DNA from: Anaerolineales bacterium
GTDB taxonomy: Bacteria > Chloroflexota > Anaerolineae > Anaerolineales > Villigracilaceae
Direction: 5' to 3'
Assembly (NCBI GenBank): GCA_014860805.1
Contig: JACZJB010000267.1
Coordinates: 1-64,000 of the forward strand
Length of the DNA: 64,000 bases
Below the pieces are notes generated by a model that was not told where the DNA came from, made no database searches, and saw only the letters and a program-made list of their open reading frames with translations. The position numbers were made by a program, and so were the translations under genes. Below, one piece after another: positions 11,896 to 39,623 of this stretch (position 1 is its first letter; each line of letters begins with the position of its first letter).

Positions 11896-12915
11896 TCAGA
11901 GAATTAACATTGCATCGCCAAAAGAATAAAAGCGATAGCCCTCGTGAATAGCGATATTATAGGTTTCAAGAATCTTCTCGCGCCCTGCAAAGGCACTGAC
12001 CAACATGATCAGCGTGGATTTGGGCAAATGGAAATTCGTGATCATCGCGTCCACGACTTTAAATTGATAACCAGGCAGGATGAAAATGTCTGTCGGGCCG
12101 ACGAACGCAGCTATTCGAGCTTCGAATATTGATTCTCTTCCAGCGGATTCAAGAGTGCGGACAGACGTTGTCCCAACTGCGATCACCCGCCCGCCGGAGT
12201 TTTTCGTGGCATTGATTAAGTCCGCAGTTTCCTGCGGGAGTTCACACCACTCGGTGTGGATCTTGTGCTCTTTGGGGTCATCTTCGGTGACAGGGGCGAA
12301 AGTGTCCAGCCCCACATGCAAAGTAACGTACGCAATCTTCACGCCCTCTTTTTTTAACTCATCCAGCAGTTGCGGCGTGAAATGTAATCCCGCAGTGGGT
12401 GCAGCGGCGGAACCCATTTCCTTTGCAAAGACAGTCTGATAGCGTTCCGGGTCGCTCAATTTTTCATGAATATATGGCGGCAAAGGGATATTCCCCACCT
12501 TGGGAAAATATGGCTCAATAGGCTCAGAAAATTTGATGAGGCGCTCTGAGCCATCGAGGATTTCCATAATCTCAGCTTGCGGGCCATTTTCGACAGTCAC
12601 TTTTTTGCCCATGTGCAGACCCTTGCCGCCCACAAGGGCTTCCCAAGTCAGTTCATCCCGGCGGCGCAAGAGAAGCAATTCCACTTTGCCGCCCGTTTCT
12701 TTTTTAGCAAAGATCCTTGCGGGAATGACTCGCGTCCTGTTGAGGATGAGGAGATCGTTTGGTCGAAGAAACAGGCTGAGGTCACGAAAGATGCGGTGAT
12801 CCATCTGTCCCGAATCACGATGCAAGACCAGCAAGCGGGAAGAATCACGCGGCTCTACAGGAGTCTGCGCAATGGAAGATTCGGGGAGATGATAGTCGAA
12901 GTCAGATGTTTTCAA
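11896..12915 (-). CDS. queA: S-adenosylmethionine:tRNA ribosyltransferase-isomerase
   Basis: MKTSDFDYHLPESSIAQTPVEPRDSSRLLVLHR...AAPTAGLHFTPQLL...TEWCELP. Confidence 0.97.
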   Translation of the reverse strand: MKTSDFDYHLPESSIAQTPVEPRDSSRLLVLHRDSGQMDHRIFRDLSLFLRPNDLLILNRTRVIPARIFAKKETGGKVELLLLRRRDELTWEALVGGKGLHMGKKVTVENGPQAEIMEILDGSERLIKFSEPIEPYFPKVGNIPLPPYIHEKLSDPERYQTVFAKEMGSAAAPTAGLHFTPQLLDELKKEGVKIAYVTLHVGLDTFAPVTEDDPKEHKIHTEWCELPQETADLINATKNSGGRVIAVGTTSVRTLESAGRESIFEARIAAFVGPTDIFILPGYQFKVVDAMITNFHLPKSTLIMLVSAFAGREKILETYNIAIHEGYRFYSFGDAMLIL

Positions 12916-13192: not shown

Positions 13193-14218
13193 TCACAACA
13201 ATCGCTGCTGGCCTTCCCCGGTGTAGGTGTATCCCAAATGCTCATACGCAGACTTGGTTGCCACACGCCCCTGCGAAGTGCGGTCCAGAAATCCGAGCTG
13301 CAAAAGATACGGCTCAACGACATCCATGATGGTATCCTGCTCTTCGCTGATGGATGCGGCGATGGTATTCAAACCAACAGGTCCGCCGTTATATTTTTCG
13401 ATGATGGTCTTGAGAACGCGGCGGTCGACATCATCCAAGCCGAGTGGATCGACCTGCAACAAGTCCAACGCCTCTTTCGCAACCTTTTGGTTGATCGTTC
13501 CATCCGCACGGACTTGGGCAAAGTCCCGAACACGGCGCAGGAGACGCAGAGCAATACGCGGGGTCCCGCGCGCGCGGCGAGCCATTTCATCAATGCCTGA
13601 TTCGTCCGCGCTGACCCTTAACATGCTCGCAGCACGTTTGACGATGTTCCGCATGGCAGCTATATCGTAATAATCCAGGCGATAGACCGCACCAAAGCGC
13701 GCGCGCAATGGGGCCGTGACCAAAGCCAGCCGCGTGGTCGCGCCAACTACCGTGAACCTGGGCAGCTTCAAACGAATGGAACGCGCCGAAGGCCCTTTAC
13801 CGATGACAATGTCCAATGAAAAATCTTCCATGGCAGGATAGAGCACTTCTTCCACGGCACGACCCAGACGATGGATCTCATCAATGAAGATCACATCTCC
13901 TGCGCGGAGATTGGTGAGGATGGCGGCAAGGTCGCCCGCGCGTTCGATGGCGGGACCCGCCGTCACTTTGACGTTCACGCCCATTTCATTCCCCAGCACG
14001 TGCGCAAGCGTGGTTTTGCCCAAGCCTGGAGGACCATAGAACAAAACATGGTCGAGAGCTTCGCCGCGTCCACGGGCAGCATCGATAAGAATGGATAGAT
14101 TTTCTTTGACTTGATCCTGTCCAATCAGGTCATCCAGCTTTTGTGGACGCAGAGCATTATCCACACGGTCATCGGGTTTGGATTCTGGGTCGAGGGGACG
14201 AGGGGAAGATTTTGCCAT
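13193..14218 (-). CDS. ruvB: Holliday junction branch migration helicase RuvB
   Basis: [59 protein letters not shown]. Internal ATG (14218) preferred over the tracked 14260 start, which lies in the upstream 17-bp repeat. Confidence 0.97.
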
Positions 14219-14225
14219 AACGGCG

Positions 14226-14231
14226 ATTATA
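14226..14231 (-). promoter_or_regulatory. TATAAT -10 element 7 nt before the ruvB ATG (possible leaderless start)
   Basis: Minus strand GGGTATAATCGCCGTTATGGCAAAATC. Confidence 0.5.
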
Positions 14232-14263
14232 CCCTGCGGGCACGTGTACCCTGCGGGCACGTG
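14230..14263. repeat. 17-bp direct tandem duplication (TACCCTGCGGGCACGTG x2)
   Basis: Exact duplication read directly at 14230-14246 and 14247-14263. Confidence 0.9.
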
Positions 14264-14331
14264 TATCCTGAAGCAGGAGCATCCTGCAAAGCAAGACCAG
14301 CTTTCAGTTAAGAAAGAGGCGCTTAAATCAA

Positions 14332-14363
14332 ACAGGGATGACCCAGCGTTCGGTCATCCCTGT
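14332..14363 (-). terminator. Terminator-like hairpin ending the triple-riboswitch unit
   Basis: Minus strand ACAGGGATGACC-gaacgctg-GGTCATCCCTGT followed by TTGATTT: 12-bp perfect stem, modest U-rich tail. Confidence 0.7.
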
Positions 14364-14378
14364 AAAAAGATTTGCTCT

Positions 14379-14463
14379 TCGGCAGTCTGGCGGTCATGAT
14401 CACAACATAAAGAGTGATTTTAGATCCATGACTTTGCGTCATCAGGTTTCCCTGATTTTGCGT
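14379..14463 (-). promoter_or_regulatory. GEMM-I (c-di-GMP-I class) riboswitch aptamer, third of three
   Basis: Minus strand CGCAAAATCAGGGAAACCTGATGACGCAAAGTCatggaTCTAAAATCAC...GTGATCATGACCGCCAGACTGCCGA: GNRA-capped hairpin (ATCAGG-GAAA-CCTGAT), ACGCAAAG core, CTAA receptor and 3' TGCCGA. Confidence 0.9.
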
Positions 14464-14464
14464 T

Positions 14465-14549
14465 TCGGCAGTCGGTCGGTCTTGATCAGTGTTTTGCACT
14501 GGTTTTAGACGCTCTGACTTTGCGCCACCGTCTTTTGGCGGCTTTGCTT
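14465..14549 (-). promoter_or_regulatory. GEMM-I (c-di-GMP-I class) riboswitch aptamer, second of three
   Basis: Minus strand GCAAAGCCGCCAAAAGACGGTGGCGCAAAGTCagagcgTCTAAAACCAGTGCAAAACACTGATCAAGACCGACCGACTGCCGA. Confidence 0.9.
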
Positions 14550-14551
14550 TT

Positions 14552-14632
14552 CTCGGCAACCCTGGCAACCATGGCTCAGTTCAGCTTTAGGTTCAAGGCT
14601 TTGCGCCACCGGGGTTTCCCCGGTTTTGCTCT
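14552..14632 (-). promoter_or_regulatory. GEMM-I (c-di-GMP-I class) riboswitch aptamer, first of three
   Basis: Minus strand AGCAAAACCGGGGAAACCCCGGTGGCGCAAAGCCttgaACCTAAAGCTGAACTGAGCCATGGTTGCCAGGGTTGCCGAG; closely follows the Vc2 layout GGGCAAACC..GAAA..GGGACGCAAAGCC..GGCCUAAACC..GGGUUACCGA. Confidence 0.93.
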
Positions 14633-14648
14633 TTATCGGAGCACTTTT

Positions 14649-14677
14649 ATTATTGCATTTTTCATTCTTATTTTCAA
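14649..14677 (-). promoter_or_regulatory. Candidate sigma-70-like promoter for the riboswitch array
   Basis: Minus strand TTGAAA-N17-AATAAT, overlapping the 3' end of the HlyD ORF; predicted start about 10 nt before aptamer 1. Confidence 0.55.
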
Positions 14678-15798
14678 TCACTCAATTGTTCTAAAAATAC
14701 CGCTTCCACCGTCATACCCCAGCGCAAACGCGGGTCGGTTTCATTTATGCGGATGGTAACGCCATAAATAATATCGCCGCCCTGCTGAACATACGCATTG
14801 CTGATCTGAGTAATCTCACCTGTGAGGACAAGGTCGGGGAGAGCGTCTGGGGTCAGGCGTACACTTTGACCTTCTTTTAATTTTACAACTTCCAACTCGG
14901 TAATATCGGTTGTTTCGACCGTCCAAACACCGAAATCCGCAAGACTTACAGCACGGGTATCCGTTCCAACCTGTTCACCAGCTTTCACATTCACATCCGC
15001 GACGACGCCATTAAACGGCGCTGTGAGGACATAGTTCGCAAGCGTGTCCTTCGCCGCATCCAGTTGAGCTTTCGCCAAAGTTAGCTGGTCGGCGTTGGGG
15101 CCGTCAAGGCTGATTTCATATTGATATTTCGCTTCAGCCTCAACCGCAAGTGCGGCTTCATATACAGCGTAGACTTCATCACGGCTGCGGGTTTCTTTTT
15201 CCAGGTCACGCAGCGCCTGGTTCAAATCTTCCTGCGCCTTTTCAAGATCATCCTTGGCTGTTTTGCGTTTGGCATTATCTTCGCTCAGGTCTTTGTATTT
15301 ATCGAATTCATCCTGCGCATCTTCAAGATCTGTTCTGCGGTCTTCCACATCAGCCTGAAGGTCCTCAATGCGGTTGTCAATATCATCCACATTGACATCC
15401 TCCCATTCCTTCTCAGCATCCGCACGGACAATTTGCGCGTCCATATACGCCTGCCAAAGCCTGGCACGGTCACCGCTCTCATTGCGAAGAAGCGTATCGT
15501 AGGCATTTTGAGCGATGACGACCTGCGCTTCAGCCCCGCCCGCATTTGCAAGGCGGACTAGCACATCTCCCTCGCTGACAGTATCCCCCGCCTTGACGAG
15601 AACATCCTCCACCACGCCGCGCGCCTGAAAGGTCAGGTTCGTCGCACGGATGGGTTCCAGCCGCCCTTCTGCCACCACTTCATTGGATGTGACAACTTCA
15701 GCCGCCATTGGGGCGGCTTCTGTAGCATTTCCACACGCTGCTAAAACCAGCGCAAGGACTGCAAGTAATGTAATGAATTTCAATATATTTTTTCTCAT
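14674..15798 (-). CDS. HlyD/RND-type efflux periplasmic adaptor lipoprotein
   Basis: Lipobox LVLAACGN; biotinyl-like GVVEDVLVKAGDTVSEGDVLVRL, coiled coil, APFNGVVADVNVKAGEQVG. Confidence 0.93.
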   Translation of the reverse strand: MRKNILKFITLLAVLALVLAACGNATEAAPMAAEVVTSNEVVAEGRLEPIRATNLTFQARGVVEDVLVKAGDTVSEGDVLVRLANAGGAEAQVVIAQNAYDTLLRNESGDRARLWQAYMDAQIVRADAEKEWEDVNVDDIDNRIEDLQADVEDRRTDLEDAQDEFDKYKDLSEDNAKRKTAKDDLEKAQEDLNQALRDLEKETRSRDEVYAVYEAALAVEAEAKYQYEISLDGPNADQLTLAKAQLDAAKDTLANYVLTAPFNGVVADVNVKAGEQVGTDTRAVSLADFGVWTVETTDITELEVVKLKEGQSVRLTPDALPDLVLTGEITQISNAYVQQGGDIIYGVTIRINETDPRLRWGMTVEAVFLEQLSD

Positions 15799-39117: not shown

Positions 39118-39164
39118 CATTCTGTAAAGATACAAGCTGTCACTCCTCGCCAATTATAAAAAGT

Positions 39165-39623
39165 CTCAGGCTGGTCTATAAGCCGCATTCTGTCCGGCGG
39201 ATTGCTCCGCTTGTGCAGTCATCTCTCTGGGCGATGTGTCACCACATCGCTCGATGCAGCCTACCCGGGACTGGCCTTTCCCACAAGAGGGAAAGGCACT
39301 TGCGAAGACGAGCCGTCTCCCATCGTCCACAGACGATTTCGTCCCTGCTTGGCCTTGCTCCCGGCGGGGGTTACCTGGCCACACGCATTACTGCGCGCGC
39401 CGGTGGTCTCTTACACCACCTTTTCACCATCACTTTCACCCCAAAGGGTGGAAAGCTGTTTGTTTCTGTGGCCCTTATCCGGCAGGTTCACGCCTTTCAG
39501 CGTGTTCCCGTCACAAGTGACGGGACTTCCCCGCCCCGGGTGCTATCCGACGCCGTGCTCTATGGAGTGCGGACTTTCCTCGATCCCGACAACGCAGGAC
39601 CGCAACTGCCCGACCAGCCTGAG
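39165..39623 (-). ncRNA. rnpB: RNase P RNA, bacterial class A
   Basis: Minus strand GAGGAAAGUCCGCACUCC ... GGUAACCCCCGCCGGGAGCAAGGCCAAG ... ACAGAATGCGGCTTATAGACC; CTCAGGCTGGTC/GACCAGCCTGAG terminal helix. Confidence 0.96.

Follow-up and report, generated by a model that had tools for sequence, protein, structure and literature searches.

Riboswitch aptamers nearly always precede the gene that they control, and the question raised by the interval between hlyD and ruvB in this genome of the Anaerolineales, a group of little-studied filamentous bacteria, is whether the three consecutive aptamers found there serve a neighbouring gene or form an RNA gene of their own. The window analysed is a stretch of 64,000 nucleotides from one contig, and a first-pass annotation of it had proposed three tandem GEMM-I units on the minus strand, making up a stand-alone transcription unit. 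A covariance-model search of that strand with the Rfam model RF01051 (c-di-GMP-I) placed all three units above the gathering score of 35 bits, and the coordinates first given for them proved correct to within a few bases. A default cmscan of the window listed units 1 and 3 and did not list unit 2, the most divergent; a match to SNORA35 in the scan scored far under its cut-off and was rejected as chance. Elsewhere in the window lies a bacterial class A RNase P RNA (39163-39621, minus strand, 234.9 bits). The features of the locus, in the order of transcription, are as follows.

14674-15798, minus strand: hlyD, exporter membrane-fusion protein (Pfam HlyD_D23), upstream neighbour, outside the RNA gene
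14672-14693, minus strand: conserved promoter element TAGAACAATTGAGTGATTGAAA, its TAGAAC and TTG invariant in 47/47 family arrays
14677-14672, minus strand: -35 hexamer TTGAAA, inside the conserved promoter element
14649-14657, minus strand: extended -10 TGCAATAAT, with the hexamer AATAAT at 14654-14649, conserved in relatives
14639-14643, minus strand: P0 (closing helix), 5' strand UGCUC, where the transcript is predicted to start
14552-14640, minus strand: aptamer unit 1 (GEMM-I), RF01051 57.6 bits
14630, minus strand: base 20 of unit 1, A; in 43 aligned arrays A 36, G 7
14464-14558, minus strand: aptamer unit 2 (GEMM-I, divergent), RF01051 46.3 bits
14548, minus strand: base 20 of unit 2, A; A in 43/43 aligned arrays
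14378-14472, minus strand: aptamer unit 3 (GEMM-I, canonical GAAA loop), RF01051 68.0 bits
14462, minus strand: base 20 of unit 3, C; in 43 aligned arrays G 33, C 9
14373-14377, minus strand: 3' strand of P0 (GAGCA), its GAGC invariant in the family, with compensatory changes beyond
14332-14363, minus strand: terminator hairpin ACAGGGATGACC-GAACGCTG-GGTCATCCCTGT with tail TTGATTTAAG, conserved and covarying
13193-14220, minus strand: ruvB (Pfam RuvB_N), downstream neighbour, outside the RNA gene

Adjacent units abut and have their CCGA ends in common, and a single terminator closes the array. The contact bases A47, C92 and G21/C22 were retained in almost every unit of the alignment, with A47 present in 128 of 129 units and C92 in 125. 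The RNA lengths of relatives differ by numbers that are not multiples of three and no reading frame is conserved, which agrees with the earlier statement that the array holds no convincing open reading frame and speaks against a short peptide product.

The promoter and terminator proposed at the outset were both recovered and both are conserved in relatives. The promoter (TTGAAA-N17-AATAAT at 14677-14649, with TG preceding the -10) overlaps the hlyD stop and as a match on its own is within shuffle expectation (0.8 expected). An upstream element, TAGAACANNTGAGTGATTGAAA, has TAGAAC, TG and TTG invariant in all 47 readable arrays of the family, starts 51 nt 5' of GCTCCGA in 44 of them, and persists even where the sequence farther upstream is unrelated. 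In related genera an AACA-NN-TGTT dyad occupies the site of the promoter element, ~42 nt 5' of the predicted start, a placement that would suit an activator site. This genome has no second exact copy of the promoter element, and looser matches were no commoner than in the control, so that a genome-wide regulon marked by this motif was rejected. At the other end the hairpin (14363-14332) has 12 bp and is followed by TTGATTTAAG (TTGATTT). Double changes were seen in its stem, CAGGG/CCCUG becoming CAUGG/CCAUG and AUGA/UCAU becoming ACGA/UCGU. Outside the hairpin a lower stem, AAAUC/GAUUU (AAATC/GATTT in the DNA), is replaced by AAACC/GGUUU in some arrays, with 17 + 6 matched cases against 2 crossed (Fisher p 0.0003, kinship not corrected for).

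The RNA probably runs from ~14643 to ~14322 on the minus strand, which gives a gene of ~310-320 nt, and its predicted start coincides with the first bases of P0. Across relatives the RNA measured through the end of the hairpin is ~300-316 nt, and the span from P0 to its 3' partner is 261-274 nt; the one exception is G062, where the figures are 325 and 282 nt and the hairpin of unit 2 is longer.

Within the family the 5' GCUC and the 3' GAGC directly after unit 3, which P0 joins, are invariant, so the family alignment is uninformative on their pairing. The evidence for the helix comes from more distant arrays, where its strands read GCACUC/GAGUGC (G049, G591), UGCAUCC/GGAUGCA (G544, G589), ACGCUC/GAGCGU (G532), CGCUC/GAGCG (G669, G056) and, after one mismatch, UUGCAC/GUGCAA (G673). 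Pairs 1-4 are formed in 53-54 of 54 arrays and double changes occur at pairs 2-6 outside the genus; the pairing observed in 14 representative arrays was equalled by 57 of 20,000 reshufflings. RNAalifold also recovered P0, with double changes in 43 of 77 predicted pairs, and the fold of the 320-nt RNA had a z of -5.3 against shuffles. This covariation supports a helix that would hold the three fused aptamers as one closed RNA. Promoter, terminator, closing helix and length are all conserved, and together they support the view that the array is a separate, presumably transcribed RNA gene with its own conserved promoter and terminator.

A search for the same triple arrangement in relatives, one of the checks proposed at the start, found it in the genus, in other genera and in other families. 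The positions of ruvB and hlyD were determined in 57 genus genomes, and the intervals between or beside the two genes were read; ~42 of the 57 have the array, almost always with all three units. Further arrays were found in other genera of the family (G307, G371, G354, G678, G612, G634, G669, G673, G436) and in other families (G049, G532, G544 and G589 of f14, G591 of f9, G056 of f8), so that at least four families of the order are represented. Public contigs matching the promoter pattern were mostly from Anaerolineales or Chloroflexi MAGs, with one from Candidatus Villigracilaceae, and the tandem-junction pattern was not found outside the order among ~300 sampled genomes of the phylum. Where the array is missing from G004, G015 and G024, the gap between hlyD and ruvB is just 85-125 bp. 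G012, G015 and G024 have neither the array nor any other GEMM match, yet contain 10-12 GGDEF matches each, and across the genus GGDEF counts did not separate the genomes with an array from those without. The array is therefore dispensable, given that some genomes with many GGDEF genes do without it.

The key ligand-contact base is base 20 in Vc2 numbering (G20 in Vc2), which we take to be three bases before the AAA of GCAAA. The A20G switch reported for Gmet_0970 is consistent with this assignment (PMC6456294), and A at base 20 is a cGAMP signature, shown also in Desulfobacca (PMC9481103). Units 1, 2 and 3 of this genome read A, A and C, so that none has the G20 of the c-di-GMP subtype and two have the A20 of GEMM-Ib. 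The middle unit of the distant f14 arrays is likewise A20, while G591, G056 and G436 have G20 where the base is readable. Judged by this base, the three pockets are consistently unlike one another, and those with A20 would be expected to bind c-di-GMP less well. A GEMM-Ib aptamer would call for a host that makes cGAMP, by a Hypr GGDEF or a CD-NTase. In this genome all catalytic GGDEF domains keep the Asp of GHxxGD, with no Hypr signature, and there is no SMODS nucleotidyltransferase, a gene seen in just 4 of the 57 genus genomes; other enzymes might make the compound. With no known cGAMP synthase recognised in the genome, A20 may, instead of selecting cGAMP, give the pocket another affinity for c-di-GMP.

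The two other GEMM loci of the genome, one a singlet and one a doublet, both lie directly 5' of genes for secreted-looking proteins. On contig C90 of G000 (12059-12322, L195) a tandem pair, A20 in the first unit and G20 in the second, precedes a protein of 213 aa, another mixed-pocket arrangement and apparently acting in cis. On contig C36 (4790-4880, L196) a single canonical GEMM-I of 81 bits precedes an exported-looking protein of 120 aa and a signal-peptidase-like protein.

The reading that we favour, with a probability of roughly 0.55, is that the array is a stand-alone RNA whose three aptamers bind c-di-GMP, possibly also 3',3'-cGAMP, and which acts as a reservoir or graded sensor and not as a gene switch. 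The RNA would be transcribed from its own promoter and ended at its own terminator, and P0 would close the three fused GEMM-I aptamers into one unit. Its unlike pockets (G or C at base 20 in unit 3, A in unit 2, A or G in unit 1) differ at the base through which one of the two halves of the cyclic dinucleotide is read; they would bind the messenger directly, and the RNA molecule itself would be the intracellular reservoir or graded sensor. The precedent is merRNA, a stand-alone c-di-GMP riboswitch RNA, and of the roles first suggested for the array that of an orphan sensor or sponge RNA is the one that fits. The gene is present in a single copy, so a buffer would need high transcription. What argues against a passive sponge is that the terminator sequence and, in the genus, the P3 loop of unit 1 are conserved beyond what a sponge needs.

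The main rival is a trans-acting small RNA gated by ligand, which we regard as possible and distinctly less probable. Binding would swap the 5' GCUC between a GAGC in unit 1, where a local hairpin covers bases 20-22 of that unit, and the distant GAGC of P0, and the swap would expose or hide a segment that pairs with mRNA or binds protein. The family keeps its 5' GCUC and its 3' GAGC unchanged throughout, and the competing GAGC of unit 1 is present in 30 of 43 arrays, with GAGU or GGGC in 3 more (33/43). The local fold was computed to be better by 6.7 kcal/mol in the ligand-free RNA, a calculation that ignores ligand and tertiary contacts. Such an RNA would also account for conservation at the level of sequence, seen in the P3 of unit 1 (GCUGAACUGAGC, conserved within the genus) and in the terminator arm CAGGGAUGACC, and the A20 of unit 1 may stem from its place in the competing GAGC. 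Yet that GAGC is absent from the f14 and f9 arrays, and the P3 sequence differs in genera g23, g25 and g246. A broader proposal, that the array represents a new class of non-coding RNA, closed by P0, with three pockets that cover two dinucleotides or two affinity ranges of one (an invariant A20 in the middle unit, G or C at base 20 in the third), a swap of its 5' end between unit 1 and P0 and an action in trans, with no gene attached, is put forward only tentatively.

Control of a gene in cis, which the first-pass annotation had suggested in the form of an attenuator for ruvB-DUF2905-queA, is unlikely. On this view the three aptamers would decide whether transcription passes the terminator and enters the next gene, and it is true that this gene is co-directional in most genomes of the genus, is often ruvB at a distance of 100-250 nt, and that the known tandem and triple GEMM riboswitches act in cis (PMC4759541, PMC9481103). 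However, ruvB has its own leaderless promoter, a TATAAT directly 5' of the ATG, which a strict pattern found in at least 21 of the 30 genomes read, among them G004, G015, G024 and G067, where no array is seen beside ruvB. The next gene moreover varies between genomes (ruvB, AlgI-like MBOAT with AlgX, a response regulator, thiamin pyrophosphokinase, YqeY, a luciferase-like gene); in many relatives other genes separate the array from ruvB, with their own TATAAT 3' of the terminator in the cases read, and the next long reading frame of G591, G612, G673 and G633 converges on the array. A candidate antiterminator, in which GUCAU of unit 3 would pair with AUGAC of the terminator arm, was discarded, the pairing being lost when the arm becomes ACGAC. 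The array thus does not serve as 5' UTR to one and the same co-directional gene, nor does an expression platform follow each aptamer, since the units abut and have one terminator.

Some other features of this neighbourhood may be recorded. The apparently leaderless arrangement of ruvB, with TATAAT a few nt 5' of the ATG, is conserved across the genus (L040-L069), and a short direct repeat, cacgtgcccgcagggta, occurs in two copies just 5' of the ruvB -10 (window 14225-14262). In several relatives (loci L101, L103, L104, L106, L107, L109, L111) the genes between array and ruvB are the AlgI-like MBOAT and AlgX-like genes of exopolysaccharide acetylation, possibly a c-di-GMP-related neighbourhood.

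A reading of the array as part of the 3' untranslated region of an hlyD exporter operon is very improbable: it lies ~34 nt past the hlyD stop here and beside hlyD in most genus genomes, but its own promoter is conserved where hlyD ends far upstream or lies elsewhere (G062, G071), on which ground the reading was rejected, and the f14, f9 and f8 arrays were not seen at hlyD. Least credible of all are decaying duplicate aptamers devoid of function, for although unit 2 has diverged and some distant arrays have a degenerate unit 1, this is contradicted by the compensatory changes, together with the near-constant length and a promoter and P0 that are invariant in the family and beyond.

In fold and in contact bases (A47, C92, G21/C22) each unit of the array matches the RF01051 aptamer, but it lacks an individual P1, the CCGA ends and one closing helix being common to all three; the array also differs in lacking an expression platform ahead of a gene and in its base 20 of A, A and C. 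The A20 of units 1 and 2 is shared with the c-AMP-GMP (GEMM-Ib) riboswitches of Geobacter and Desulfobacca; those of Geobacter act in cis on genes for cytochromes, pili and the like, in bacteria that make cGAMP (PMC6456294, PMC9481103), whereas the present genome yielded no known cGAMP synthase. A fixed A20 pocket where no such synthase is recognisable raises the question of what that pocket senses.

Tandem GEMM pairs had been cited as the established precedent, which is correct but understates what is known. A triple-tandem c-di-GMP-I riboswitch, Bc3-5, has been characterised in the 5' UTR of cspABCDE of Bacillus thuringiensis (PMC4759541), and 12 GEMM triplets have been counted (PMC9481103). 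Bc3-5 likewise has three consecutive GEMM-I aptamers in one RNA; these are, however, three complete riboswitches, whereas the array consists of fused aptamers with no platforms between them and no constant gene after them. Closer in kind is merRNA of Bdellovibrio bacteriovorus, a massively expressed non-coding RNA of 445 nt that contains a c-di-GMP riboswitch, has no conserved downstream ORF, has been reported only in Bdellovibrio and was proposed as a c-di-GMP reservoir (PMC3627812). The array is like it a non-coding GEMM-I RNA that precedes no conserved ORF, and differs from it in length and in that merRNA is known to be expressed, whereas the array is known here from its sequence. The reservoir idea came from one lineage and an RNA unconserved elsewhere, and the conservation of the array makes it testable; if the reading is true, an RNA gene of three messenger pockets would show RNA as a free-standing receptor or buffer of the messenger. 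The open-licence papers searched described neither a triple-aptamer RNA gene closed in this way nor any GEMM array from Anaerolineales. Precedents exist for GEMM triplets and, in one case, for a free-standing GEMM RNA, and what is new is a triple-aptamer non-coding RNA that is closed, has mixed pockets and is found family-wide.
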